Assembly (NCBI GenBank): GCA_015231915.1
Contig: JADGAR010000037.1
Span: 1-36,949, forward strand
Origin: Magnetococcales bacterium
Lineage (GTDB): Bacteria > Pseudomonadota > Magnetococcia > Magnetococcales > Magnetaquicoccaceae
Direction of reading: 5' to 3'
DNA length: 36,949 nt
Of this stretch, positions 3,169 through 17,676 are shown piece after piece; within the stretch, counting starts at the first letter, position 1, and each line of letters begins with the position of its first letter. The notes below the pieces were generated by a model. That model worked only from the letters and a program-made list of their open reading frames with translations, was not told where the DNA came from and did not search any database. The position numbers and the translations under genes are program-made.

Positions 3169-5268
3169 TTATAAGTTATACCCTTTGAAAAACACCTCTT
3201 TGGCCACGTGATGGCCCAGGGAGCGGTAGGCTTCGAACTGCTCTTCGTCGAAGAACTGGTCCAGGGTGGTTTCGTGGGGGAAATCCGGGTGGCGCGCCTT
3301 GTAGTGCTGGATATTGATATCCTCTTGCTTGCAGAGGGAGGCCTTGATGTAGAGCAGGGTCCCCACGCTGTTGTCGTTGGCATAGCGAATTTTCCCGGTG
3401 GCGCAATGGCGCGTTCCGTTGCGCAATGCCAGCATTTCGTCGGCATCCATCTCGATATGGACGTTGAGATTGATGCGCGCCAGGCGGATGGTGGTGGCCA
3501 GTCCCTCGAATTCCAGTTTCGGGTCCGCCTCTCCGTCCAGGGCCACGATCAGGCGGCATTGCCTCTGCAACAAAGGATAGATGGCAAGGTTTTCGATGTG
3601 TCCGCCATCGGAGACGTTGATGAAGGCATCATCGTGGGGTGACAGGGTCGAAAAGGCCTCGTTGAAGAGATATTTGCGCGGCGGAGACCACCAATACTTG
3701 ATCGCCATTTTGAAGAACCAATTTGTGCAGTTTTCCTCGAAGCACTTTGGATTGGGAAGCCAGTAGCCGAGCCGGATATTGAGAAAGGTCATCAATGCCG
3801 TCAGGGGTTTCATGGTGAAGGTGCCCATGTTGGGCGAGAAGGCCGCACCGGAGATGGCCATGGCGGTGCCCAGATTGAGCCAGGGGTCGGCCTTCTCCAT
3901 GGCGGTCGTCCGGCAGTAGCCGGTCAGTTCCGAGCCGACCCACTCCCTGCTGAAGAGAAAGAAATCCGCCGTGCGTCCGCGCATGACGTAATCGTCCTCA
4001 TTGTCGGATTGGCCGTCCGTGCGGGTGACGTTCACGGCGGCATTGATCAGGTGGTAAGGGGCATCGTTGAACTTCAGATGGCTGAGTTTCAGTTCGTCGT
4101 TGTGCCCTGGCGCCACCTTTTGCCAATCCGGCTGGCCAGGTTTGATCAGATAGGCGCGGCTCAAACGATCCCGATAGAAAACATGCAGGGAGTATTTGTT
4201 GATATTGAAGAATATGCCAATCGCGAAGAGAAACGCGCCCGCAACGGCGAGGAAAATCCAGTAGGAGGTAGAGTTGTCGGGATGGGTGATGTGCGAGGCA
4301 CAGGCATTCCAGCACAGGCCGGGCATCATCAGCCAGAGGGTCAGACTCCAGAAGAAAAGGGGAACCACAATGGTCGCGATACCCAGAGCGACGTATTTGC
4401 CGAATGGAATGCCCTCGGTCGTATTCTCGCTCTTTTTGATTTTGTTGATGAAGAGATAGACGCTGCTGGCGGCGGTTCCCAGTGCGCTGACCAACTTGCC
4501 GCTATTTTCGTCCAGTTGTTCGTGCAGGTTGAAAAATAACCTCATGGCATGCGGTTGCAGTTCCACGAAAAAGATCACCCCCAGCAGAAGCAGAAACAAT
4601 CCCATGATATCCTTTGTGCTCATGTCCCGAATATCCCAGGTGGCGTGATGATTGTCGGAATCGGCTGCAAAGGCGATATGCATCACCATGAACAAAACGG
4701 CAACGACGCAGGCCATGACCTTGGTGGCCAAAAAATCGGTTCCCAGGCTCGGCATCACGACGATGCCTGCTGCCGCCAGCCACAGAATGAACGGCAGCAC
4801 CAGCAGCATGTTGAAGAGCAGGCCCCGAATGAAGATGGCCAGCATGCGCATGTTGTCGAGCAGGCTGCCCGATGGGGCCAGATAATTGGAAAAATTGCGC
4901 AGGTGCTGAAAAGGGCGCGATTCCACCTGTTTGCCATGCGTGAATGGAAATTCCGGGTTGCATTTGCTCGCGGTACTGGCCGTATACCAGGAGGTCAGGC
5001 AGGATCCCAGGAATCCGCCGCCCGAGACCGTGGAAAGATAGTCGAATTGCGGGTAGAGACCGCGTTCGCCGAGATATTGCACGATGCCAAGGCTGAAGGT
5101 GGCGGAACGGATGCCGCCTCCCGATATGGCCAGACCGGTGCGATCCTTGGGGGAGTTGTCTTGATCTTTATGCAACTTTTCGAGCAATGACCGGCCAGGT
5201 TGCTGTTCGCGCAGCTGGCTGTATTCTGATTCATAATCGAAGGTCTTTGAATAGTTTTTTTCGTCCAT
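3169..5268 (-). CDS. Patatin-like phospholipase with central membrane segments
   Basis: A 699-aa patatin-family protein, predicted to hydrolyse acyl esters of lipids with a Ser-Asp dyad. The oxyanion-hole motif GGGIR is at residues 50-54, the nucleophile serine is probably S82 in TVSGGG (a variant of G-x-S-x-G), and the catalytic Asp is about D554 in VSDGG. Between the two halves lie several hydrophobic segments, roughly residues 145-370, so the enzyme is probably anchored in the inner membrane with its active site split around the membrane region. The ATG at 5268 is preceded by AGAGGA; the frame continues upstream to 5397 but through AT-rich DNA that looks like a promoter. Substrate unknown. 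Gene context (bioBDA downstream) gives no clear functional link. Confidence 0.88.
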   Translation of the reverse strand: MDEKNYSKTFDYESEYSQLREQQPGRSLLEKLHKDQDNSPKDRTGLAISGGGIRSATFSLGIVQYLGERGLYPQFDYLSTVSGGGFLGSCLTSWYTASTASKCNPEFPFTHGKQVESRPFQHLRNFSNYLAPSGSLLDNMRMLAIFIRGLLFNMLLVLPFILWLAAAGIVVMPSLGTDFLATKVMACVVAVLFMVMHIAFAADSDNHHATWDIRDMSTKDIMGLFLLLLGVIFFVELQPHAMRLFFNLHEQLDENSGKLVSALGTAASSVYLFINKIKKSENTTEGIPFGKYVALGIATIVVPLFFWSLTLWLMMPGLCWNACASHITHPDNSTSYWIFLAVAGAFLFAIGIFFNINKYSLHVFYRDRLSRAYLIKPGQPDWQKVAPGHNDELKLSHLKFNDAPYHLINAAVNVTRTDGQSDNEDDYVMRGRTADFFLFSREWVGSELTGYCRTTAMEKADPWLNLGTAMAISGAAFSPNMGTFTMKPLTALMTFLNIRLGYWLPNPKCFEENCTNWFFKMAIKYWWSPPRKYLFNEAFSTLSPHDDAFINVSDGGHIENLAIYPLLQRQCRLIVALDGEADPKLEFEGLATTIRLARINLNVHIEMDADEMLALRNGTRHCATGKIRYANDNSVGTLLYIKASLCKQEDINIQHYKARHPDFPHETTLDQFFDEEQFEAYRSLGHHVAKEVFFKGYNL

Positions 5269-5334
5269 ATCGTCCTCTTTCTTTAATATTGTCGTTTGTT
5301 GAATGATATAAGATGAATATAGTCGACTTGGATT

Positions 5335-5363
5335 AATATAAACGCAACAGATGCGCATTGCAA
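5335..5363 (-). promoter_or_regulatory. Candidate sigma70-type promoter for the patatin gene
   Basis: Reading the minus strand, TTGCAA (5363-5358) and TATATT (5340-5335) are separated by 17 bases. The -35 matches consensus at 4 of 6 and the -10 at 5 of 6. It sits in an AT-rich island (about 5275-5345) that contrasts with the GC-rich surroundings, about 70 bases before the chosen start codon. The rest of the 190-base gap holds a 6-bp inverted repeat (5408-5413 / 5423-5428) without a T-run. Confidence 0.5.
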
Positions 5364-5460
5364 GAATTTTTAGCAATGGCTCGCAAATTTCGCGCATGCG
5401 GTTCCAGGCCGCATGGGGATCGTGCGGCAGGGAGCATGGCCACGGGTTGTAGGGTGGAGA

Positions 5461-6171
5461 TCAGATTTCCTGTTCGGCGGGTTTGGCGGGCTTGCGCCAG
5501 GGTGAGGCAGGTTTTGGGGCGCTCTTGCCGGGGGTGGGTTGCCAGTTCTTGGCCATTTCCTGTGCCTGGGTGAGCTGTTCCGGGGTCATTTTGGCGGTGA
5601 GCGCGTCGCGCATGCGAATGGCGGCACGGTTCCCTTTGCTGGCCGCCAGGTTGAACCAGAAGTGGGCGGTGACCACATCCCCAGGCACGCCCTGCCCGCG
5701 CAGATACAGCTCGCCCAGCTTTGCCTGCGCCGCCGGGTTGCCCTGATCGGCGCTGCGGCGGAACAAGCGGGCAGCCTCCTTGAAATCCTGCCTGACCCCT
5801 TCGCCGCGAACATGGAGCATGCCAAGGTTGGCCTGAGCCGTGGCATTCTCCTGGTTGGCCGCCAGTTGCAGCCACTTGACGGCCTCCTGGAGATCCTTGG
5901 CGACCCCTTCCCCGCGCAGATACATCACCCCCAGGTTGGACTGGGAGGCGGCATTGCCCTTCCCGGCGGCCCGGCGAAACCATTTGACCGCTTCCTGGTA
6001 GTCCTGCAACACCCCCCCTCTGCCCAGATAGTGCATCAGCCCAAGGGTGTTCTGCGCCGCGACATCCCCCTTCTCGGCGGCCTGGCGCAAGGCATCCGTC
6101 ACCCCGGCCCAGGCCGGCACGACCGCGAGCAACGTCCACCACATCACCAGCAGGACAAGAGGTCTTTTCAT
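5461..6171 (-). CDS. Secreted Sel1-repeat protein
   Basis: A 236-aa protein with an N-terminal signal peptide (MKRPLVLL... ending at AWA, about residue 23), then four complete Sel1-like repeats of about 36 residues (pattern A..G...AQ..LG..Y..G.GV..D...A..W...A) and a partial fifth. The tail is rich in Lys and Pro. Sel1 repeats are alpha-helical protein-binding scaffolds, here presumably in the periplasm. The ATG overlaps the stop of the multiheme cytochrome gene by 4 nt (ATGA), which settles the start and argues for coupled expression with the electron-transfer genes. It may help assemble or anchor that complex; this is inference from position. Confidence 0.88.
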   Translation of the reverse strand: MKRPLVLLVMWWTLLAVVPAWAGVTDALRQAAEKGDVAAQNTLGLMHYLGRGGVLQDYQEAVKWFRRAAGKGNAASQSNLGVMYLRGEGVAKDLQEAVKWLQLAANQENATAQANLGMLHVRGEGVRQDFKEAARLFRRSADQGNPAAQAKLGELYLRGQGVPGDVVTAHFWFNLAASKGNRAAIRMRDALTAKMTPEQLTQAQEMAKNWQPTPGKSAPKPASPWRKPAKPAEQEI

Positions 6172-8030
6172 GCCGTCAGTGCTCCGTGCAGGGTCAAAAC
6201 CAGCAGGATCAACCCGCAGCCGATGAGCAGCAGGCCAAGAAGTTTCGCTCCCCAAACCAGCGCCCGTGCAGGGGGCGGGACCAGGTGGCGTTCCAACGTG
6301 TGTGTGGCCAGCAGACGCTCATGGTAGGCCGGGTGTTCTCTGCGCAATTTCTCCTCGGCGTCGCTGCCGGTGAAGATCACGGTCTCCGGGGGCGGCAGCC
6401 GGGAAGGCAAAAAATGATTGTTGAAAAAGTGAATGGTAAACAAAAACACCGCCGCCAGAAAGGCCTCTTCGCCATGCAGCAGCAGGGCGACGTTGAAAAC
6501 CCATCCGCCGAAATGCTCGCCAGCCACATGGGGAAAGGCCAGCACCACCCCGCTTCCCCCGATCAGGGCCATGCCCCAGAAGACCGCCCAGTAGTCGAAT
6601 TTTTCGTAGTAGGTCCAGCGCTCGAAACGCGGTTTTTCGCCACGGCCCAGAAACCAGAGGAACATGGCGCGGCAGTCACGGAAATCCCGCCGGTTGGGCA
6701 GCAGGGAGTCGGGACCGAACCAGACGAAATTTTTATCGCGGATCAGGCGCGGCACAAGAATCAGCAGATGCAGGGCAAAAATCCCCGTCATCAAGAGCGC
6801 CGCGCCGCGATGAATCCAGCCCATGCTGGCCGGCCCGCCCATGAGTTTGGCCAGGACCGGCGCCCACGGGGCGTGGGCGTTGTGGAGGGTCATGCCCGTC
6901 ACCAGCAGCGTCATCACCGTCAGGGCGAACAGCAGATGGGCCGCCCGCCAGAACCAGGGGAAGCGTCGCACATGGCGTCCCGATGGGGCCGGGCGGGGGG
7001 TGTGGGGGCGTTCCCGCCACTCACGGCGGAACCAGAGCGCCGCATGAATCAGAAAAAAGAGCATCACCCCCCATGTCAGGCCGTGAATGAGGCGGGAGGC
7101 GATCCACATGCCGGGAAAACGATTTAAATCATCGGAATGGGCGTGCGGGGTGAAGGAGCCGAATCCAGTGGTCGCCAGCGGGCGTTTCTGGCCGTCGTGG
7201 CATTTCTGGCAGGTTTTCAGGCGGTTGCCGGGATGGATCGTGGCGCCGGGATCCTGCACGGCGCGGGTGGCGTGGCTGTCATGACAGTGAAAACAGTTGG
7301 CGGTGGCCTTGGCCCCCAGTCGGTTGGCCTGCCCGTGATAAAAACGGCGATAGCTGGCCAGATTGCGCGGATGACACTTGCCGCACGTCTCCGTGGCGTT
7401 TTGGGTGAAGGTGGGGATGTGGGACCCGGTAATGGCGTGGGTGTCATGACAATCCGTGCAGGTCGGGGCGCGGGGATTGTGTTTCTCCAGGAGTTCGACG
7501 CCGTGAATCGATGCGGCATAGCGCTCCAGAGGGTCGTCATGGCACTTGCCGCACAACGCCGGGATGTTCGCGCGCCACGCCGCGTGGGCCGGAGAGGCCT
7601 GGTCGCGGGGAATGGCGAAAAAATGGGTATCGTGACACTCGTGGCAGGTGGCGTTGGGGATGGTGGGATCGTCCGGATTGGGGCGGGCGTGGAACGATTG
7701 CCGGTAGTGATCGATGTTGCGCCTGATCCGCGCCTCTTTTTCCCCCATCCGTTTTTCGTGACAGGCAGCGCAGTCGATTTTCGGCGCCGTGCCCTGCTGG
7801 TGGGGGGGGTCGAGCGCGACGATCCCGGTGTGACACTCCCGGCATGCCATGCGGCCATGCACCCCTTGCGCATACCGTTCCCGGTGGATGGCTTGCAGGG
7901 GATGAGATTGGACCAAAAGCTCCCTGACGCCATCGTGACAGCGCCAACAGGCCTCGTTGTCGTCCGCCAGGGCCGGCGACGGCATCCAGGGCAACAGCTG
8001 CAGGATCAAAAATAGCAGGCGCGTGATCAC
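6168..8030 (-). CDS. Nonaheme cytochrome c / cytochrome b membrane fusion (CbcL-like architecture)
   Basis: 620 aa from a GTG start. A signal sequence (residues 1-22) leads into a periplasmic domain with nine CxxCH motifs, at C28, C63, C87, C129, C160, C191, C216, C246 and C274. From about 313 onward it is a cytochrome b561/FdnI-like membrane domain with several hydrophobic helices (about 313-333, 357-382, 404-427, 481-500, 513-536, 588-615) carrying histidines suitable for b hemes. This composition matches Geobacter CbcL, an inner-membrane quinone-linked cytochrome with nine c hemes plus a diheme b domain. The likely role is electron exchange between the quinone pool and periplasmic cytochromes. 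The GTG overlaps the upstream porin stop (GTGA) and puts a clean signal peptide at the N-terminus; an upstream ATG at 8192 would add an implausible Arg/His-rich leader. Confidence 0.87.
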   Translation of the reverse strand: MITRLLFLILQLLPWMPSPALADDNEACWRCHDGVRELLVQSHPLQAIHRERYAQGVHGRMACRECHTGIVALDPPHQQGTAPKIDCAACHEKRMGEKEARIRRNIDHYRQSFHARPNPDDPTIPNATCHECHDTHFFAIPRDQASPAHAAWRANIPALCGKCHDDPLERYAASIHGVELLEKHNPRAPTCTDCHDTHAITGSHIPTFTQNATETCGKCHPRNLASYRRFYHGQANRLGAKATANCFHCHDSHATRAVQDPGATIHPGNRLKTCQKCHDGQKRPLATTGFGSFTPHAHSDDLNRFPGMWIASRLIHGLTWGVMLFFLIHAALWFRREWRERPHTPRPAPSGRHVRRFPWFWRAAHLLFALTVMTLLVTGMTLHNAHAPWAPVLAKLMGGPASMGWIHRGAALLMTGIFALHLLILVPRLIRDKNFVWFGPDSLLPNRRDFRDCRAMFLWFLGRGEKPRFERWTYYEKFDYWAVFWGMALIGGSGVVLAFPHVAGEHFGGWVFNVALLLHGEEAFLAAVFLFTIHFFNNHFLPSRLPPPETVIFTGSDAEEKLRREHPAYHERLLATHTLERHLVPPPARALVWGAKLLGLLLIGCGLILLVLTLHGALTA

Positions 8031-10183
8031 TGGAATCGGGTGGTGTAACGGAATCCGATGAAATCTGCGGTCTGTCGATCCTGGGTGGCCATTTGCGTGC
8101 TGTCTGTGGTGGTGCCGTAGATGTAGGGCGTGCCGTCGCTGAATTTCCAGTTCCAGTCGTTGCTCTCCCAGCGTTCGTGGATGTAGTCCCAACGCAGCAT
8201 GCCCGGTCCCAGCCCCTTGTATTCGAAAAAGGCGTTCAGCCGGGTCATGGGTGAGACGATCATCGGCAGAGGGGTGACCCCTGCCGGATAGGCCGGCACG
8301 GCGCTCTTCGGGTCGGTGGTCACCATGTCATCGAAGGAGGAGGTGGTGCGGGTCCATTGGAAGTTGGCTCCCAGCTTGAGTTTTTCGTTCCACTGGTTGC
8401 GCACTCCCAGTCCCAGGGAGGAGCCGGTGTCCGTGAGCATGGAACTCTTGTCCGCCTCGTGTTGCGTGGGGGTGTTCCAGCGCCCGGAGTCCTGCCAGGT
8501 GCGGTTGATGTCGTAGGCATACCAGGCCGTCAACAGCCATTTGTCGGTCGGGGCGAAGTCCAGATCCAGCGAGTAGAGTTGGGCATGGCCCTTTTTCATG
8601 CCGTAGGGGTGGGTCTGGTCGTCGTAGTGGTCCAGGGCATTTTCGGCGTTGATCTGCACGCCGAGCCGATCCACGGGACGCCAGTCCATGGAGAGGCGCA
8701 GCTTGTCCCGCTCCCGGTCGGCGATGAAGAACGGGACGATCTTGCCTTGCGTGGTGCCCAGGATGTTGGGTGAGTCCACGAAGCTCGAGCCGGTGCGCGT
8801 GGCATGCTCGACGTTCACCGAGCCGTTGACGCTGTCCGAAAGGTGACGGGCCAGTTGCAGGCGGTAGGTGGTTTCGTTCAACCGGTTGCGCCAGGGGACG
8901 AAGCGTTCGTCGTCCATGCCGTCGCCATTGCGGTCGCTGCCGAAGGGGACCGAGCGATCCTGTTTTTTGTGTTCCACGCCGGCGGTGACGGTGGTTTCGA
9001 AGGGGAGGCGGTAGCTGGCCTCCAGCAGGCCTGTCGTGGTGGTGAGAGATGCCGGGGTGGAATGGACCTGGGCGGTGGCGGTTTGGGCCACCAGCCAGGA
9101 GGGGGTCTTGTCCGCCTCGTCGTAATAGCGCAATTTGGCGTTGATGTGCAGATCCGGCAGGGGCCGGGTGGTCAGGCCCAGCAGCAGATGGGTGGTGTCC
9201 ACCCGGCCTTCCAGGCTGGCAAGACCGCCAGTGCGGCCCAGGCCGGCGATGTCGGCGGTGGGGAGGTGTTCGTTTTGCAGGGCGCGGCCATAGGCGATCT
9301 TGAAGGTGACGCGGGTATCCGGCGTGATTTGCTGGCCGCCGCTCAGATAAATCTGATGCGCCTCGTTGTCCAGTGGCAGGGAGAGGTAGTAGTGGCTGGC
9401 CAGCAAGGTGGGGTTGTCTCCTTGCAGGAGGGTGTCCACCAGGGTGTTGTCGTTGTGGAACCAGCTGCCGTTGTAGCCCAACTGCCATTGCAGGTCGCGT
9501 CCCTGGTAGCTCACGGAAGGCTCCAGTTGGCGCATGGTCCACTCCACCGGTTCCAGGACGAACTCCGGCGCGCCGCCCCGGCCCCATTGACGGGTGCCGT
9601 CCTTGGTTTCGTTGCGGAAATTCAGGTTGAACTTGAGGTTGCGGTTGAAGGTGCGGAAGGTGTTCAGGGTCAACCGTTCCCGGTTGGTCTCGATATGGTA
9701 GGTGTTGCCGTTGTTGGCGATGGCGCTTTTTGGAATGATCTGGGTGGTGGTCCCCAGGCCGTCGGTCTTGGAGTTGGCGGTGTAGGGGGCCAGGGCAGGG
9801 GTCTCGTTGAAGTCGAGTCGCACCCCCCACACCCCCTGACGCTCCATGTCCAGGGTGAGTTCCCGGTTGTCGTCCAGACCGAGGTTGCGTCCCACGGCCC
9901 GGCTCCAGGTGCCGGTGGCGTCGTCGCGCCGGACGATGTTGGCATCCAGCAGCAGCTCCGGGCGGGTGTGATCCCGGGCATCGAAGATCCCCAATTGCTG
10001 GCGGTCGCCGAGCAGATAACCGGCGCCTACGGAGATGGAACTCTCCGGTTTGGTGTAGGGCGCGGCAGTGGGACTCATCTCCGGCAATCCCTTTTCCTCG
10101 GACCAGACCGGGCCGGGGAACAAGGAGATGGCGAGCAGGCCGGTCAGGGCGGACAGAATGGATGGGCGATGCGTGGTCTTCAT
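8027..10183 (-). CDS. MtrB/PioB-family outer-membrane beta-barrel porin
   Basis: 718 aa with a cleavable signal peptide (about residues 1-28) and a long body of alternating polar/aromatic strands, ending in RYTTRFQ, as usual for large outer-membrane barrels. In porin-cytochrome systems (MtrAB, MtoAB, PioAB) such a barrel sheathes a periplasmic decaheme cytochrome so that electrons cross the outer membrane. The gene lies 24 nt after the decaheme cytochrome gene and overlaps the nonaheme/cytochrome b gene by 4 nt, which strongly supports this role. The N-terminal CxxC seen in Shewanella MtrB is absent. No extracellular MtrC/OmcA-type cytochrome is present in the window, so the set is more like MtoAB/PioAB. 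Confidence 0.9.
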   Translation of the reverse strand: MKTTHRPSILSALTGLLAISLFPGPVWSEEKGLPEMSPTAAPYTKPESSISVGAGYLLGDRQQLGIFDARDHTRPELLLDANIVRRDDATGTWSRAVGRNLGLDDNRELTLDMERQGVWGVRLDFNETPALAPYTANSKTDGLGTTTQIIPKSAIANNGNTYHIETNRERLTLNTFRTFNRNLKFNLNFRNETKDGTRQWGRGGAPEFVLEPVEWTMRQLEPSVSYQGRDLQWQLGYNGSWFHNDNTLVDTLLQGDNPTLLASHYYLSLPLDNEAHQIYLSGGQQITPDTRVTFKIAYGRALQNEHLPTADIAGLGRTGGLASLEGRVDTTHLLLGLTTRPLPDLHINAKLRYYDEADKTPSWLVAQTATAQVHSTPASLTTTTGLLEASYRLPFETTVTAGVEHKKQDRSVPFGSDRNGDGMDDERFVPWRNRLNETTYRLQLARHLSDSVNGSVNVEHATRTGSSFVDSPNILGTTQGKIVPFFIADRERDKLRLSMDWRPVDRLGVQINAENALDHYDDQTHPYGMKKGHAQLYSLDLDFAPTDKWLLTAWYAYDINRTWQDSGRWNTPTQHEADKSSMLTDTGSSLGLGVRNQWNEKLKLGANFQWTRTTSSFDDMVTTDPKSAVPAYPAGVTPLPMIVSPMTRLNAFFEYKGLGPGMLRWDYIHERWESNDWNWKFSDGTPYIYGTTTDSTQMATQDRQTADFIGFRYTTRFQ

Positions 10184-10207
10184 GGTCGTCTCTCTCCCCG
10201 GGTCTGG

Positions 10208-11194
10208 TCAGCGCCGGAACCGTCCGGCGCTGGTGGCGTTCTCCGTGCTGTTGCCGCCGTGAATGTTGGTGTGGCACTTCAGGCAGCCACGGGCCAGGGA
10301 ACCCACTACCGCCGCGTTCACGGAGCGCCCGTTGGGCAAGCCCGCCACCTGTCCCCGGTGGGAGGTATCGCTGTGGCAGCTTTGGCACAGATAGGGCGGG
10401 CGGTAGGTGAGCAGTCCCGGCACCGTGGTCCCGTGGGGGTTGTGGCAATTGAGACAGTTTTCCGATACCGGGGGATGGCTGTGGACGAACGGCCCGCGTT
10501 TTTCCATGTGGCACTGGTAGCAGGTCTCGTTGACCGTGTCCCAGCGCAAGGACTTGTGGCCCGCCGAGCCGTGCGGATTGTGGCAGTTGGAACAGGTCAT
10601 CTTCCCCTCCGGGACCGGGTGGTGCGAGGGGCGGTTGAACAGGGAACGCTGGCTTTTGTGACAGCTGAAGCAGACCTTGGGCTGGCTGAGCTTGTCTTGT
10701 GCCCGGTCATGGTCGGTATGGATTTCGTGGCAGTTGGTGCAGGCCACGTTGCGGGTGGAGTGGGCGCTGCCGGACCAGAACATCAATTTCTCCCCTTGAT
10801 GGCAGGTCAGGCAGGCCTTGTTGATCACCTCGGCGGGACTGGATGCCCCCTTGAAATTGGCGAAATCTTCATCGATGCGGGCATCGGGGCGCAACGCGGG
10901 GGCGCGCCGGCCATGGGTGATATCCGGTTTGGGGCGTTTGTCCGAACCCGGCAATTTTTCTTTCATGTGCGCCTTGCTGGGACCATGGCAACCGACGCAA
11001 GTGGGCGTCCGGCTGTCCGCCAGGGTCCCGTGCCGGGTGCGACCGATGGACAACAGGGAGGTGGAGTCCTCCTCGTCGTGGCAGAAGGTGCATTCGGCAT
11101 CCCCGCGCAGGACCGCATCCTTGCGTGGCTCTTCGGCCAGGGCGGGCAACGCCAGGACAAACAGAACCAATAAAGAGATCAATATTTTTGACAT
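10208..11194 (-). CDS. DmsE/MtrA-family decaheme c-type cytochrome (MtoA/PioA-like)
   Basis: 328 aa with a signal peptide (residues 1-20, ALA cleavage site) and exactly ten CxxCH heme motifs, at C35, C66, C128, C152, C175, C201, C225, C247, C270 and C304. Length, heme count and the CxNCHNPHG-type segments fit the DmsE/MtrA family, the periplasmic wire that inserts into an MtrB-type porin. It sits directly before the porin gene and 19 nt after a monoheme cytochrome gene. The direction of electron flow (iron oxidation inward, or respiration outward) cannot be told from sequence. Confidence 0.95.
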   Translation of the reverse strand: MSKILISLLVLFVLALPALAEEPRKDAVLRGDAECTFCHDEEDSTSLLSIGRTRHGTLADSRTPTCVGCHGPSKAHMKEKLPGSDKRPKPDITHGRRAPALRPDARIDEDFANFKGASSPAEVINKACLTCHQGEKLMFWSGSAHSTRNVACTNCHEIHTDHDRAQDKLSQPKVCFSCHKSQRSLFNRPSHHPVPEGKMTCSNCHNPHGSAGHKSLRWDTVNETCYQCHMEKRGPFVHSHPPVSENCLNCHNPHGTTVPGLLTYRPPYLCQSCHSDTSHRGQVAGLPNGRSVNAAVVGSLARGCLKCHTNIHGGNSTENATSAGRFRR

Positions 11195-11213
11195 GTTTGC
11201 GCCCTGTGCTTTC

Positions 11214-11552
11214 TTAAAGAGAAAGAATCCAACGAATGAACTCTTTCAGATGGTCATTGTTGTCGAAATCGGTTTTCTTGTGGTCTTCCTCGGTGCCGTC
11301 CGCGAGCTTGACCTTGGGGGTGGAGGTCAAGTGCTTGAACAGTTTTGCTTCGGCCTGGGCATCCCCCTTGTACTTCTGGGCGACCTTGGCGTAGGAGGGG
11401 CCGTTCTTCGACTTCTGAATGGAGTGGCATTTGGTGCAGTCGTTGCGTTTCAGCACCTCCAGGGCGGTGGCGGCATCCAGCTCCGCATGCGCCAGGTCGG
11501 GAAGAAAGGCGAGACCCAAGGCCATCACAATCCGGGAGAGAAATGGGAACAT
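11214..11552 (-). CDS. Small monoheme cytochrome c, periplasmic shuttle (MtoD-like position)
   Basis: 112 aa. Signal peptide to about residue 23 (AHA), one heme site CTKCH at 39-43, and a C-terminal helix (EFIRWIL) as in class I cytochromes c. There is no methionine after the heme motif, so the usual His-Met ligation seems impossible; H91 (in EEDHKK) or H101 could serve as distal ligand. The start ATG at 11552 follows AAGGA with an 8-base gap; a longer frame to 11672 would run into the EAL gene. In Sideroxydans lithotrophicus the mto cluster also encodes a small monoheme cytochrome, MtoD, next to MtoAB, so a periplasmic carrier between inner and outer membrane modules is likely. Confidence 0.88.
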   Translation of the reverse strand: MFPFLSRIVMALGLAFLPDLAHAELDAATALEVLKRNDCTKCHSIQKSKNGPSYAKVAQKYKGDAQAEAKLFKHLTSTPKVKLADGTEEDHKKTDFDNNDHLKEFIRWILSL

Positions 11553-11556
11553 GCGT

Positions 11557-13545
11557 TCATTCCTTTGTCGATTCTGGGGTGTGAGGGATATTGTATCTGG
11601 CCAGCAGCTCGGGAATCCGGTCGGCTGGGAGCGCCTTGCTGTACAGCCAGCCCTGCACGTCATTGCAACCACCGAGCTTCAGTTTGTCCTGCTGATCCTG
11701 GTTTTCGACCCCTTCTGCGGTCACCAGCAACTGCAACCCGCGCGCCATCTGAATGATGGTGTTGATCATGTTGAGATTGGAGGTTTGCGTCGGGAGGTTC
11801 ATCACGAAGGAGCGGTCGATCTTGAGGCGGTCGAACGGAAACTGTTGCAAAATCGACAAAGAGGAATACCCGGTGCCGAAGTCGTCCAGGGCCAGTTGCA
11901 CCCCCAGTTCCTTGATCGCGAGCAGGACCTCCCTGGCCCGCTCCTTGTCCAACATCACCTGGGATTCGGTGATCTCCAGTTCCAGATGGCGGGGTGGCAG
12001 GCCGGAGTCGCTCAACGCCTGGGTGATCGTCGTCAGCAGCGTCGGGCTGGCGAACTGACGCGCCGAAAGATTCACGGCCATGTGCAGGTCCCGGTATCCC
12101 AGATCGTGCCACGCCTTCAGATCCCGGCAGGCCTGTGGCAGCACCTGTTCCCCCAGAGGGACGATCAACCCGGTCTCCTCGGCCAGGGGGATGAATTGAT
12201 CGGGAAAGGCGCGCATGCGGTCGGGCCGTTCCGGGTCGGGCCAGCGGATCAGGGCCTCGAAGCCGATGATTTTCATGGAGGCCAGGGAGATCTGCGGCTG
12301 GTAATGGGGCGTCAACAGCCGCTGGGCGACGGCCTTCCGCAAATCCTGCTCCAGGGCGAGGATGGCCAGGGTCTTGGCGTGCGCCTCGCTCGAGAAGACC
12401 TGAAACTGCCCCGGCCCCTGTTCCTTGGCGCTCTTGAGGGCGAATTGCGCCTGTTCCAGCAGTTTCTCCCCATCGTCCGGAAACAGGCTGATGCCGATGG
12501 AAACGGTCACCCGCAGCTCGCGTTCCTCCAGGGGGAGGGGGTCGGCAATCAGGGCGCGGATCCTTTGCACCGGCGACATGATCTCGCGCACATTGCGGAT
12601 GAACATCAAAAAAAGAAATTCGCCGCCATCCGCCTTGGCCAGAGTGTCGCCGGCACGCATGGTCTCCTTGAAACGTTCGGCCAGCAGGCGCAACACCTGA
12701 TCGCCCACGGCGCGTCCCAGGGATTCGTTGATGCGTCCGAAGCGGTCCACCCCCAGGGCCAGGACCATGAAGGATTCCCGGTTGCGCACCGCCCGGCGCC
12801 GGGCCTGATCCAGCCGGTCCTGAAAAATGCGGCGGTTGGCCAGCCCCGTGACCGGATCCCGGTAGGCGAGGCCCCGCAACTCCTCCTGGGTGACGTGCAG
12901 GGCATGCAGCACCGACAGGGCCATGGCCACGGCGTCGATGAGAAAATGGGCACGCGGGTCTTCCCGGCACTGGTTGCGCACGTAGAGATTGACCAGCATC
13001 AGCGGGCGATCGGTTTGCAGATTTTTGGCCAGGAACAGGGTGTGGCCATGGGGCAGCATGGCAGGGTGTTCCCGGGTGTGCACCTCGTCGATGGACGGGT
13101 GGAACTGGATCGGCTTCGTCTCCTCCATGGCGCGACCGCACAGACACTCGCCGTAGGGCACGTGCCGACACAGGGTGGTCAATTCGGCAGGCAGATGACG
13201 TTGCGCCACCATGCGCAATGCACCGCCCGCTTCATCCACCAGAAAAAGACACCCCTGATCCAGGCCATGTACGCTCGGAATGGCGAGGATGCAATCCAGG
13301 GCGCGTTGCAGCTTCTCCTCCAGGGAGAGATCGCGCAGGGCCAGGCCGATGATCTCGCTCAAGGCGGCCAGCGCCCGTTTGCGTTCGTCGAGCTGGGCGG
13401 CCAGAATCTCCCGCAGGGTCTGTTCCAGCAGGGTGAAGGCATTGCGCGCCTCCTGCGTGCCCTGCCGCATGCCGTCGCGCAGCAGATGATCCATCAGGGC
13501 CTGCAGGGGGAGCGTCGCGCTGCCCAGTTCGTCGGAAGGGGTCAT
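11557..13545 (-). CDS. GAF-GGDEF-EAL protein, probable c-di-GMP phosphodiesterase with degenerate cyclase domain
   Basis: 662 aa, apparently cytoplasmic (no membrane segment). GAF-like sensor about 60-215, GGDEF about 225-385, EAL about 400-650. The cyclase signature reads D-G-G-E-F at 306-310 rather than GG[DE]EF, and the usual GH after the ND segment is changed to GR, so cyclase activity is doubtful; it may only bind GTP. The EAL domain keeps E430 (FEAL), N492 (NLSARQF), E524, D554-D555 (LDDFGTGYSS), K575, E611 and Q631, so it should hydrolyse c-di-GMP. The GAF domain has a C126-x2-H, C134-x-C136, then H-rich PHGH pattern that could bind a metal or cofactor. The stop is 4 nt from the cytochrome c start. 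Confidence 0.93.
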   Translation of the reverse strand: MTPSDELGSATLPLQALMDHLLRDGMRQGTQEARNAFTLLEQTLREILAAQLDERKRALAALSEIIGLALRDLSLEEKLQRALDCILAIPSVHGLDQGCLFLVDEAGGALRMVAQRHLPAELTTLCRHVPYGECLCGRAMEETKPIQFHPSIDEVHTREHPAMLPHGHTLFLAKNLQTDRPLMLVNLYVRNQCREDPRAHFLIDAVAMALSVLHALHVTQEELRGLAYRDPVTGLANRRIFQDRLDQARRRAVRNRESFMVLALGVDRFGRINESLGRAVGDQVLRLLAERFKETMRAGDTLAKADGGEFLFLMFIRNVREIMSPVQRIRALIADPLPLEERELRVTVSIGISLFPDDGEKLLEQAQFALKSAKEQGPGQFQVFSSEAHAKTLAILALEQDLRKAVAQRLLTPHYQPQISLASMKIIGFEALIRWPDPERPDRMRAFPDQFIPLAEETGLIVPLGEQVLPQACRDLKAWHDLGYRDLHMAVNLSARQFASPTLLTTITQALSDSGLPPRHLELEITESQVMLDKERAREVLLAIKELGVQLALDDFGTGYSSLSILQQFPFDRLKIDRSFVMNLPTQTSNLNMINTIIQMARGLQLLVTAEGVENQDQQDKLKLGGCNDVQGWLYSKALPADRIPELLARYNIPHTPESTKE

Positions 13546-13558
13546 GGCGTCGGCAGGC

Positions 13559-15910
13559 TCACGATGCGTTGGCGATGGCCTTGTCCAAAGCCGTGAACAA
13601 GGCGATCAGGTTGGTTTCCATTTCTTGCACCGCAGAGTCGTGGGTTTCCGGGGACAGGCCCGCGCGCACGGACTCCTGGAGCGCGGCCAGGCAGGTGGCG
13701 ACCTGTTCGTGAAAACGACGATCCGCAAGGCTCACTTCCGGGTGGGCATGCAGCGGGGTGTCCCGCAGCGGGCAGGCCGGGCTTTCCGTCAGCGGGGCGG
13801 CGGACTCCGGGGTCGCACCGCACAGGGCCAGACGCACCGATTCCACCACCCGCAGGTGGCTGCTCTTGATCTCCGTGAGCGTCAACGGCTGCCTGCCGGT
13901 ACGCAGGGCGCGTCCCGACTCCTCCAGGGAGTCCCCCACCGTCTGTCCATAACGGGTCAACAGGCCGGAAAATTCGATCAATCCCCGCACCAGACTGGTC
14001 AGATTCATCGAGACCAACATGTGCCTTTGCACCTGGATGGAAGCGGCGTAGATGTCGCCGGCAAAAAGGCGCACCGACTCCGCCTGGCTGGAGGCCTCGC
14101 GGCTGTTGTCGGCCACGAATGCGACCGCCCTGGCCGCCGCGTCCGCGTCCTCGGCGATGCTCACGGTGAGGTGCTCCGCGTTGGAGGCGGTCTGCGCCAC
14201 CTCGCTCGAGGCTTCCAGAAGTCGCTCCGCATGCGCTTTCACGTCGCCGGTCGCGTGTTCCACCCGGCGCATGTTCTCCATGATGGTCTCGACGGAGAGG
14301 GACTGTTCGTCCATGCTGACCTCGATGGCATCGTTGATCCTGGCGATGCCGCCGATCATGGCGTCGAGCTGGTGGGTGGCCTCCGAGACTTCGTCCACCC
14401 TGGCGCGGATTCCGACGGCCAGCTCCGAGATGTTCAGGGTGGCCTTGGCGGTCTGATGGGCCAGTTCCTTGACCTCGTTGGCCACCACGGCGAATCCCTT
14501 GCCGGCCTCGCCGGCGCCGGCGGCCTCGATGGAGGCGTTCAGGGCCAGCATCTTGGTTTGATCCGCAATCTCGTTGATCATCTCGACGATATCGGCAATG
14601 GCCCGCACCTCTTCCGTGAGATTGCCCATCACCTCGAGGGACTGCTTGGTATGCAGGGTGGCGTTGTTGGAGCCAGCCGAGGCATCGCGGCACTGGCGCC
14701 GCACTTCCGCGATGCCGTTCGACAATTCGCCCACCTCCCGACCCACGTTGCGCACCGAGCCGTCCACCCGTTGCAGGTTGTCGTACACCTCGTTGATATG
14801 GGCATTCATCGACCGGGACGCGGCGGCCATCCCCTCGACGTTGCGGGACGCGGACAACGCCTTTGCGGCGATGGGTTGCACGTTCTCCTCCAGCAGGTGG
14901 TCAATGCTGCCGGAAATGCGGGTGAGGTTGTCGTTGGCCTGGGTGATGCTTTCTTGCAGGCGGTGGACCTTGGCGTCGAGCTGGTCGTTTTCGCTGACCA
15001 CCCGCCGGGCCAGCTGCATGTTTTCCAGGGAGTGCCGGTTCAGGGTTTCGTTCAGATGCGCCTGTTCGTGGATGATGGCGTTCACATTGCCCGACTGCAC
15101 CATGGTCACCATGGCGTTGCGGGCGAGATTGTCGAGCATGTCGTTGAAGATGGTGGTGATTTCACTCAATTCGTCCCGCCCGATCACCGGGACCCGCCCT
15201 CCGAGTTCTCCCCCGGCGACGATGCGCATGGCACTCGCGATCAGGGAGATCGGTTTGACCAATGAGCGGACGATCAGCCAGCCCACCAGCCCGGAGCAGG
15301 TCAACGCCAGCAGCATGACCACCACCAGACCCCGTTTGAGGTTGGACATGCTCTTTTCCAGGCCGGTCATCTCCTCCAGGATCGTCTCTTCCTCCTGGGT
15401 CATGAGTGGTACAAAGTAGTAATCGATATACTCGGCCTCCTCGTCGAAGGCATGCTTGAGCCGGAATCCTTCCTCTTTGTTGTTGGCAATGAAGGCCAGC
15501 GTCATCTTCTTGCCGATGTTGTAAAAATTTTCGATTTTTGCAAGGATTTCGTCAACCGCCTGCAGGTTTTTCTCGTTGTGGTCGTTTTGGTAGGCGGCTT
15601 TGTATTCTTTCAGATTTTTCACAATACTATTAAAATACTCTTCCGCCCCGATGAAGGGATCGGTTCCCCCCTTTTCCGCCTTGTTGATGGAGACCTCGGT
15701 CAGATAGTACTGCATTTTGAGCAGTTCCTTGCCCAGGCGCTGCGCCATCAATACCCGGGTGAGGCGTTCGTTGCGGATCTGGCCCACTTCGCCCAACACC
15801 CTGTGGCTTGCGGTCCAGCTCCAGACGCCGACGACGATCAGCAGAATCAAGGGGATGGTGACGCCAGCCGTGATGCGATGACTGATTTGCAAACGATTGA
15901 GATGGATCAT
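13559..15910 (-). CDS. Membrane methyl-accepting chemotaxis protein-like transducer
   Basis: 783 aa. TM1 about 15-33, a mainly helical periplasmic region (about 34-193) of four-helix-bundle type, TM2 about 194-214, HAMP about 215-270, then a long coiled-coil signalling domain. The chemoreceptor hairpin tip, which contacts CheA/CheW, is clear at about 440-485 ([32 protein letters not shown]). A further 100 residues or so after the signalling domain contain Cys and His but no motif I can name. No C-terminal NWETF-type pentapeptide. The gene is 3 nt after the GGDEF gene and 13 nt before the EAL gene, so it belongs to the same transcript as the cytochromes and may act in energy or redox taxis (inference). 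Confidence 0.92.
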
Positions 15911-15913
15911 GAG

Positions 15914-17602
15914 CTAGCCCTGATTGCTTGTTGATGCCGGGGTATCCTGGTCCGGAGGCGGGGCGGCGCACACCTGATTGCGTCCTCCTTTTTTGGCCTG
16001 GTACAGGGCGTTGTCCGCCGCCTTGAAGATCTCCGCCGGCCCCTGCGCGCCGGGCAGGAGCTGGGGATAGGTCACCGCGCCGATGCTGATGGTGACCTTG
16101 AGGCCGTCCACCACCATCGCCTCCACCTTGCGCCGGAACCGCTCGGCGGCGATGAGCAGCCCCGTGAGATTGGTGCTGGGGGCGATGACGCAGAACTCCT
16201 CGCCCCCGAAACGGCAGCAGAAATCGATATCCCGGAAGGCGTTTTTCATGGCCCCGGCGAGGGCCTGCAGGACCCGGTCTCCCTGGTCGTGGCCGTGAGT
16301 GTCGTTGAATTTTTTGAAGTGGTCCACATCGAACACCAGCAGCCCGAACTCGACGCCATAACGCTTGCCCCGCTGGAACTCCGCCTGGAGGAGTTCGTCG
16401 AAATGGCGGCGGTTGATCAGTTTGGTCAGGCCGTCGGTGTTGGAGAGGTTGCGCAACTGCCGCTCGAGGTTCTTCTCCTCGGTCACGTCGCGGATCAGCG
16501 CCGCCGAGCCGATGATCGCCCCCCCCTTGTCCCGGATGGAGGCGGCGAAGAAGTTGAAGACCTTCTGGTTGAAGACCACGGTCTCCGGCATGTCGTAGCC
16601 GGAACGCACCAGGAATTGCCGCACGTATTCGGGATCGTCCAGGATGTTGAGAAACCCCCCGGCCACGATCTCCTCCTCGCTCTTGCCCAGCAGCCGCTGC
16701 GCGGCGGGATTGACCAGCACCACCTCCCCTTCCCGGTTGGTGCCGATGATCCCTTCCCGGGCGGAGAGCAGAATGGTCATCAGTTTTTCCTGTTCGTTCT
16801 GCAGTCCCTCGTGGGCCGATTTCAGTTGCAGGGCCATCTGGTTGAAGATGGTCGCCATCTGGCCCAATTCGTCCTTGCCGATCACCGGGACCTGGGATTC
16901 CATGTTGCCGTCCGCCACGTGCAGCATGGCCTTGGTGACCTTGGTGATGGGATGGACCAGGCTGTTGACCATGAGAAAGGCGATGACGACCATCAGCACG
17001 ATCATGACCATCGCCAGCGAGAAGGCCAGTTGGGTGCGGTGCCGGCCATACTGCTGGGCCTCCCGCGAGGCGTTTTTCATGTCCTTTTTGACCTGGCTGA
17101 AATGGTACTCCACCAGGAATTCGATGGCCTGGTTGGCCTCTTCCATCTTTTCGGCGAAGGTTTCGCTGGTCTTGGCAGAGGCGTGCTCCTGCCAGGCCTG
17201 GAAGGTGGCGAGAAAGGCCTGGCGGTAGTCCTGGATGTGCTTGAGGATCCCTTTGGGCGCCTTCAGATCCGGCTCCTGGCCGCCGATGCCTTTTTCCAGT
17301 TCGGTGAGTTTTTCCAGTTTCTCCAGAAATTCTTTGTAGTATTTTTGATGATCCTCGGCCAGTTCCTCGGTGGGGGCGAGGCGGAAGTTGTACTCCACGT
17401 CCCGCATCATGGCCAGGGTGTGGGAGAGTTGAAAGCCGATGGAAAAGCGGGCGAAATCTTCGGAGATCAGGGTTTCGTAACTCGCCTCGATCTGCCGCAT
17501 CCCGGTTTGATAGACGAAGACCAGCCCGATGAAAAAACCGGCGATGATCATGAAGCCGAGCGTGAATTTTTGCCAGATGTATAATCGGTTAAAAATATTC
17601 AT
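15914..17602 (-). CDS. Membrane HAMP-PAS-GGDEF diguanylate cyclase
   Basis: 562 aa. TM1 about 10-31, a helical periplasmic sensor (about 32-190), TM2 about 192-213, HAMP about 214-268, PAS about 270-380, GGDEF about 385-540. The active-site motif is GGEEF at 466-470, the metal-binding DVDHFKKFNDTHGH is intact, and an inhibitory I-site RDID at 457-460 lies exactly five residues before GGEEF, so product-inhibited c-di-GMP synthesis is expected. The HAMP region closely resembles that of the neighbouring chemoreceptor (VPVIG[KR]DEL), suggesting shared ancestry of the two sensors. It is the first gene after a consensus-like promoter and heads the cytochrome operon. Confidence 0.94.
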   Translation of the reverse strand: MNIFNRLYIWQKFTLGFMIIAGFFIGLVFVYQTGMRQIEASYETLISEDFARFSIGFQLSHTLAMMRDVEYNFRLAPTEELAEDHQKYYKEFLEKLEKLTELEKGIGGQEPDLKAPKGILKHIQDYRQAFLATFQAWQEHASAKTSETFAEKMEEANQAIEFLVEYHFSQVKKDMKNASREAQQYGRHRTQLAFSLAMVMIVLMVVIAFLMVNSLVHPITKVTKAMLHVADGNMESQVPVIGKDELGQMATIFNQMALQLKSAHEGLQNEQEKLMTILLSAREGIIGTNREGEVVLVNPAAQRLLGKSEEEIVAGGFLNILDDPEYVRQFLVRSGYDMPETVVFNQKVFNFFAASIRDKGGAIIGSAALIRDVTEEKNLERQLRNLSNTDGLTKLINRRHFDELLQAEFQRGKRYGVEFGLLVFDVDHFKKFNDTHGHDQGDRVLQALAGAMKNAFRDIDFCCRFGGEEFCVIAPSTNLTGLLIAAERFRRKVEAMVVDGLKVTISIGAVTYPQLLPGAQGPAEIFKAADNALYQAKKGGRNQVCAAPPPDQDTPASTSNQG

Positions 17603-17647
17603 AATTGTTTATTTACTTGACTGGAATTTCTAAGGAGTTGCTATAAC

Positions 17648-17676
17648 TATTTATAGAAAAAATAGTCACTTGTCAA
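17648..17676 (-). promoter_or_regulatory. Consensus-like sigma70 promoter for the signalling/electron-conduit operon
   Basis: On the minus strand a perfect TTGACA (17676-17671) lies 17 bases from TAAATA (17653-17648), or 15 bases from TATAAA (17655-17650). The -35 overlaps the last codons of lpxK. The following AT-rich leader of about 45 bases ends at the start codon at 17602, which has no clear Shine-Dalgarno. This would start a separate transcript from lpxK. Confidence 0.65.

Follow-up and report, generated by a model that had tools for sequence, protein, structure and literature searches.

A recurrent electron-conduit locus with associated c-di-GMP and chemotaxis genes in Magnetococcales

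The locus and its genes

The window analysed here – the whole stretch of 36,949 nucleotides – belongs to a Magnetococcales metagenome-assembled genome (MAG) of 133 contigs that is rated 100% complete. Between positions 17602 and 5461 it carries eight genes on the minus strand, flanked upstream by lpxK and downstream by a gene for a patatin-like protein. In their order of reading, starting with the upstream intergenic region, the features are:

17603..17672, minus strand: intergenic region between lpxK and the DGC gene, with a putative promoter (TTGACA followed by an AT-rich block)
15914..17602, minus strand: diguanylate cyclase (DGC), with a transmembrane (TM) segment, a four-helix periplasmic bundle (DGC-type), a second TM segment, HAMP, PAS and a GGEEF domain with an RDID I-site
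13559..15910, minus strand: methyl-accepting chemotaxis protein (MCP), with a TM segment, a four-helix bundle (MCP-type), a second TM segment, HAMP and an MCP signalling domain
11557..13545, minus strand: GAF/degenerate GGDEF (DGGEF)/EAL protein, a predicted c-di-GMP phosphodiesterase, probably cytoplasmic
11214..11552, minus strand: monoheme class I cytochrome c (cytC), periplasmic, MtoD-like
10208..11194, minus strand: decaheme c cytochrome of the MtrA/MtoA/DmsE family
8027..10183, minus strand: outer-membrane porin, MtrB/PioB/MtoB
6168..8030, minus strand: fusion of a nonaheme c domain with a six-helix cytochrome b (cyt b/c), a predicted inner-membrane, CbcL/MtoC-like quinone oxidoreductase
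5461..6171, minus strand: Sel1-repeat protein with a signal-like N-terminus

The genes are tightly packed. Gaps of 3 nt (DGC–MCP), 13 nt (MCP–EAL), 4 nt (EAL–cytC), 19 nt (cytC–decaheme) and 24 nt (decaheme–porin) are followed by two 4-nt overlaps, one between the porin gene and the cyt b/c gene, which starts with GTG at 8030, and one between the cyt b/c and Sel1 genes. A first-pass annotation of this DNA had listed the same eight genes with the same strand and spacing; the open reading frames bear this out, and domain searches confirm every family.

The only named relative retrieved by a porin search is WMHbin3, a freshwater MAG with magnetosome genes (PMC6783814), whose porin is 91% identical. 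The window genome belongs to the WMHbin3 genus, and G097 in our set carries the same contig as WMHbin3. Searches for a plasmid location with the porin and the cyt b/c protein gave no match for either. The Sel1 protein (Sel1 domain, 3.5e-40) is encoded only in the window and WMHbin3 among the loci compared and lies outside the core set. In both genomes it is followed by the patatin-like gene (window 3169-5397; 742 aa, with a hydrophobic middle), which may be part of the same transcript.

The electron conduit

The decaheme protein, with ten CXXCH motifs, scores 258 bits against TIGR03508 (DmsE family; cut-off 192) and matches chain A of PDB 6r2q (E 3e-54), while the porin scores 298 bits against TIGR03509 (MtrB/PioB; cut-off 240) and 388 bits (1e-115) against PF11854, and matches chain B of the same entry (E 8e-17). 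These chains bear generic names in the PDB; we take them to be Shewanella MtrAB. Both components of a porin–cytochrome conduit, an MtrB/PioB-family barrel and an adjoining MtrA/DmsE-family decaheme, are present. The small cytochrome (Cytochrom_C, 4e-6) has as its best PDB match 4xxl (E 3e-24), far ahead of other c cytochromes; under its generic PDB name this is presumably Sideroxydans MtoD. The cluster thereby includes an MtoD-like class I monoheme cytochrome, as does the Mto pathway.

The cyt b/c protein has nine CXXCH motifs, with their Cys residues between 28 and 277, a Ni_hydr_CYTB match (2.9e-8) and six hydrophobic segments (residues 310-615); a search for relatives among solved structures found none. 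This combination of an N-terminal multihaem c domain and a C-terminal six-helix HydC/FdnI-like cytochrome b is that of CbcL, MtoC and MtrH, and the protein is, judged by the architecture described in PMC6295460 and PMC9129911, CbcL/MtoC-like. An extracellular decaheme of the MtrC/OmcA family (TIGR03507), as in MtrCAB, was not found over cut-off in the genome (best score 18.6 bits, cut-off 209), in a search that covered that family only. Clusters of mtoA, mtoB, mtoC and mtoD are already known (PMC6295460), so the conduit itself (MtoA/B/D with CbcL/MtoC) is of a known kind.

CbcL/MtoC-like b/c fusions of 43-47% identity are also common in porin-less Magnetococcales (G026, G010, G129, G006 and others), G006 being a single-contig genome with the fusion and without the porin. 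A divergent second type of MtrB, about 25% identical, occurs without sensor genes in two further members of the order, G085 (L034, 9104-13722) and G141 (L036). Beside it lies a tetrahaem gene in G085 or a trihaem gene in G141, and G085 also has a decaheme and a monoheme cytochrome there.

The signalling proteins

Domain searches find GGDEF (2.4e-42), HAMP and PAS in the DGC, and MCPsignal (1.5e-28) and HAMP in the MCP. The motifs GGEEF and HDQGD are present in 10/10 DGCs compared, and the window DGC has an RDID I-site (RxxD). At what we take to be the position diagnostic of Hypr enzymes, the residue is Asp rather than Ser; with canonical DGC motifs throughout, a cGAMP (Hypr) cyclase was rejected. 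The MCP signalling tip is recognisable, by the pattern used, in six of eight MCPs. In the third signalling protein (EAL 1.3e-66, GGDEF 1.3e-33, weak GAF), the EALIR and DDFGTGYS motifs are kept and the GGDEF motif is degenerate – DGGEF in the window, DGDEF in some relatives – so that net c-di-GMP phosphodiesterase activity is the best guess.

Both the DGC and the MCP have two TM segments flanking about 165 residues. Their AlphaFold models, of moderate confidence (mean pLDDT 72 and 79, respectively), share one architecture, in which a long TM1 helix is followed by a pair of shorter helices and then by another long one, which runs via TM2 into HAMP; as modelled, both input domains are generic four-helix bundles. 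Compared by hhalign, the DGC-type and MCP-type bundles match with a probability of 80% when HAMP is left out (the 99.7% match includes HAMP). A structure search with the MCP model gave weak results, the best match being NarQ (E 1.2e-3, TM 0.33). Across seven sequences, the DGC-type bundle has invariant His residues at 61, 85 and 167 and the stretches EYNFR and AIEFLVEYHF. The DGC input domains of G053 (L038) and G125 (L035) contain about 90 inserted residues that may form a second helical module.

The first-pass annotation had imagined these sensors reading electron flow in the periplasm. For this idea the sequence offers no basis: the periplasmic parts of the window DGC and MCP contain no CXXCH and no Cys, and no PAS or haem domain was found in them. 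Haem- or PAS-based redox sensing by these four-helix domains was accordingly rejected.

Gene order in related genomes

Absence of the gene order from all relatives, which that annotation held would count against the unit, is not what the genomes show. WMHbin3 matches the window in all eight genes and in their order, and a third species, G149, has the first six (DGC-MCP-EAL-cytC-DmsE-mtrB) on the same strand and tightly spaced, with 4-nt overlaps at MCP-EAL and cytC-DmsE, up to a contig end within mtrB.

Nine other genomes with the conduit vary in order, with orthologous signalling genes adjoining it. Three (G125, G053 and G065) have DGC-cytC-DmsE-mtrB-cyt b/c, with an orthologous MCP on the opposite strand after the conduit genes in G053; G030 has DGC-DmsE-mtrB-cyt b/c-cytC-MCP; and in G133 one contig carries EAL-DGC-cytC-DmsE and a second begins with mtrB-cyt b/c. 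The MCP gene adjoins cytC in G057, is divergent from cytC in G121 (where cyt b/c is on another contig) and directly follows cyt b/c in G181. In G109, cyt b/c is followed by a DGC-EAL pair that is read from the other strand. Several relatives carry just one of DGC and MCP. Given these varied arrangements, it is the association, and not the order, that is conserved beyond the genus. In G133, two tandem GAF-EAL homologues lie upstream of the DGC gene (C218, 4232-6930).

Co-occurrence of conduit and sensors

The distribution of the sensors was followed in 48 Magnetococcales genomes, which are related and mostly incomplete MAGs and hence not independent. Every genome with a window-type conduit (12/12) encodes an input domain of the MCP type or the DGC type, and none of those that lack the conduit does (0/36). 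Fisher's exact test gives 1.4e-11 for this split, and the product of within-genus (stratified) exact probabilities is 1e-6; the latter is the safer figure for a sample of this kind. The 12 linked cases span seven families, and within genera the linkage tracks the presence or absence of the conduit, with 4/11, 1/7, 1/3, 2/8 and 1/5 conduit-positive genomes per genus.

Individual searches separate members from non-members by wide score gaps. Full-length MCP orthologues were found in 8/48 genomes at 388 bits or more (next 310), each on the conduit contig. Single-sequence searches returned 11 members with the MCP-type bundle (at least 132.9 bits; next 80.9) and seven with the DGC-type bundle (at least 167 bits; followed by about 50 for another fragment of a member, and then 41), the latter from seven genomes that all have the conduit. 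All bundle members come from genomes that encode the window-type porin and, with the single exception of G181:C144, they lie at the conduit locus. For the N-terminus of the EAL protein, five genomes contribute six members, every one of them at a conduit locus (187.5 against 100.5 bits for the next match). In G085 and G141, with their divergent porin of about 25% identity, the sensor domains are absent. An MCP-type profile run against 398 genomes of the phylum found nothing above 135 bits outside conduit loci, compared with 284-317 for members, a gap that is partly by construction, since the profile was built from member sequences.

These results bear on a rival reading of the locus, in which the MCP, GGDEF and EAL genes are chance neighbours that have simply been handed down with the conduit and have no functional link to it. 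Such genes are so numerous that adjacency somewhere would not be rare: the window's own genome has 46 MCP-domain matches (about 36-37 genes) and, at a first look, 113 candidates for the DGC query, and WMHbin3, which shares the full order, is close (about 90% identity). However, the specific orthologues are missing from 36/36 conduit-less genomes, congeners included (stratified exact p 1e-6), and the association is kept in rearranged loci and involves two DGC lineages. On the input-domain and EAL N-terminus searches, chance neighbourhood is strongly disfavoured, and we consider it improbable. What recurs in these genomes is a conserved conduit-plus-sensor module.

Trees

In the conduit tree, G000, G097 and G149 group with full support, and G065, from another family (f7), falls between genomes of family f1 with support of 71-77, a placement compatible with transfer. 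The DGC output domains form two clades with support of 100: one holds the cyclases with the DGC-type bundle, the other the three from G030, G109 and G181, which have the MCP-type bundle. Two cyclase lineages thus accompany the conduit, the second with a chemoreceptor-like input domain; the second-type DGC of G181 is one of three such genes and is not at the conduit. A domain swap within a single DGC lineage was rejected, since the output domains of the cyclases that bear the MCP-type bundle cluster apart from the rest.

Transfer also figures in a second alternative, in which conduit and sensors would travel as one cassette with no direct coupling: the genes would share a niche – iron or the oxic–anoxic interface – and the ligand of the receptors – an organic acid, nitrate or a metal ion, for instance – would be an unrelated one. 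The patchy distribution of the locus and the position of G065 among f1 genomes (71-77) agree with this, as do the input domains, generic four-helix bundles with a weak resemblance to NarQ/Tar-type sensors. Yet at least one receptor is retained at every conduit locus despite rearrangement, so the response would be useful mainly during conduit use, and we regard uncoupled co-transfer as rather unlikely, though less so than chance neighbourhood.

Transcription

In the window genus, co-transcription of the unit is likely, to judge by the spacing of its genes. The minus-strand pattern scan inside the unit counted promoter and terminator matches near the shuffled expectation, and none stands out, including before cytC, where the first-pass annotation had said that a terminator or separate promoter would break the unit; the scan picked up a single 5-bp hairpin close to where cyt b/c meets Sel1 and one 9/12 promoter match inside the MCP gene. 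The consensus-like promoter claimed upstream is borne out in part. TTGACA is there and is kept, with the AT-rich block, in WMHbin3, but the spacer to TATAAA is 15 nt and TATAAA itself is not kept, which makes the promoter plausible, not strong. Moreover, lpxK, on the same strand, ends just 70 nt upstream of the DGC gene, which leaves room for transcription from further upstream. The claim of one transcript is plausible only for the window genus, which keeps the order; in other genomes the MCP gene or the DGC-EAL pair can be divergent or convergent, and strict co-transcription is not the conserved feature. Rfam searches, the c-di-GMP riboswitch included, gave no match over gathering scores in the window or at L031, L035, L037, L038 and L040, and a riboswitch link was rejected on these six loci. 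An inverted repeat, CTATTT-N7-AAATAG, lies within 17603-17672 and is imperfect in WMHbin3; it is a possible regulator site.

Comparison with known systems

The closest relative of the conduit is the Mto pathway, in which decaheme, porin, CbcL-like b/c oxidoreductase and MtoD-like monoheme cytochrome occur as they do here. The parts of PMC6295460 and PMC13390432 that treat it place mtoA, mtoB, mtoC and mtoD in Dechloromonas aromatica RCB and Gallionella capsiferriformans ES-2, and ImoA/CymA in the mto cluster of Sideroxydans ES-1. In these parts of the published descriptions, no DGC, MCP or phosphodiesterase is named in Mto clusters, whereas here such genes are co-located with the conduit and, in one genus, in line with it.

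The first-pass annotation had known of no unit combining a conduit, c-di-GMP enzymes and a taxis transducer. A link between signalling and growth on electrodes is known from EsnABCD of Geobacter sulfurreducens (PMC5585712), which, as here, brings together an MCP and a c-di-GMP synthase, and in which the Esn pair is needed for electrode growth, though without genetic linkage to a conduit. The two systems would be alike in the kind of function they serve, but differ in their genetics and in the anatomy of their receptors. By their locus numbers, esnA, esnBC and esnD lie at separate places and are not reported beside a conduit, whereas here the receptors are at the conduit locus. EsnA has a cytoplasmic GAF domain and no putative periplasmic domain, and EsnD is a response regulator, in contrast to the receptors described here, with their periplasmic bundles, and to the DGC, a membrane receptor with such a bundle (PMC5585712). 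Chemoreceptors proposed to read the periplasmic redox state – GSU0582, GSU0935 and DcrA – carry c-type haem in the periplasmic domain, unlike the four-helix receptors here, which have no haem motif (PMC8396549); CXXCH is absent from the periplasmic domains of both the window DGC and MCP. Shewanella congregation and energy taxis tie motility to insoluble extracellular acceptors, a behavioural link (PMC5789149, PMC6336422). Full-text searches of the open-licence PMC literature turned up neither a conduit operon that brings along a DGC, an MCP and a phosphodiesterase nor any report of extracellular electron transfer or of a conduit of this kind in Magnetococcales.

Proposed function

Across 48 genomes, sensors and conduit are either both present or both absent, a pattern that suggests cellular coupling of behaviour to electron exchange with the environment. 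The linkage of a conduit to c-di-GMP and taxis genes, as the first-pass annotation had it, holds as a dedicated and recurrent one, found in 12 genomes; its single-transcript order does not hold as the conserved feature, and the finding is better founded on inherited association than on operon order.

We consider it probable that the locus encodes a self-contained module for extracellular electron exchange with its own behavioural control set. The trans-envelope part would consist of the MtrB porin with the decaheme MtrA/MtoA, an MtoD-like periplasmic shuttle and a CbcL/MtoC-like quinone oxidoreductase, and the control set of the membrane-bound DGC and chemoreceptor, with their periplasmic four-helix bundles, and the GAF-EAL c-di-GMP phosphodiesterase. 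Going by protein families, the conduit would link the quinone pool or oxidases to an electron donor or acceptor outside the cell. The bundles may detect a periplasmic cue tied to the substrate or to conduit use; the MCP would then steer swimming, while the opposed activities of DGC and phosphodiesterase would set c-di-GMP and with it the choice between swimming and attachment.

Uptake of electrons from Fe(II) or minerals seems somewhat the likelier direction, as suggested by the MtoD/MtoC-type partners, the lack of an MtrC-like protein over cut-off and the group's microaerophilic habit. In the opposite case, CbcL-like quinol oxidation would reduce Fe(III), Mn(IV) or other external acceptors, and the receptors would guide cells towards these, much as Shewanella congregates; the difference is one of direction alone, and the module reading allows for it. 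CbcL of Geobacter does work outward (PMC9129911), and CbcL, MtoC and MtrH occur in both reducers and oxidisers, with no sequence feature separating them (PMC6295460); the MtoD-like shuttle and the lack of an MtrC-like protein over cut-off nevertheless resemble the Mto arrangement, and the potential of Sideroxydans MtoD is high (+155 mV; PMC13390432). Outward flow is thus possible but doubtful.

A more specific version of the module, that its receptors are dedicated sensors of conduit activity – binding, for example, the MtoD-like cytochrome, the decaheme or an extracellular substrate – within an electro-taxis and attachment unit that would tell the cell to swim, turn or attach and that spread as a cassette through Magnetococcales, is put forward tentatively, as a minority possibility.

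How electroactive bacteria find and stay on their electron donors and acceptors is an open question. In Shewanella and Geobacter behavioural links are known, but the receptors are scattered and hard to assign; receptors inherited with a conduit name the candidates directly and make the question testable by expressing one locus. The locus further suggests that Magnetococcales, an order of magnetotactic cocci, exchange electrons extracellularly.

As a control, BLAST (E 1e-8) found no MCP or GGDEF neighbour at four conduit loci of other proteobacteria, nor at the G085 locus. In G212 (L047, 4707-11238), which lies outside Magnetococcales, a GGDEF gene is located upstream of DmsE and porin-like genes; its sensor is unrelated by BLAST, and it may represent an independent case of cyclase–conduit linkage.
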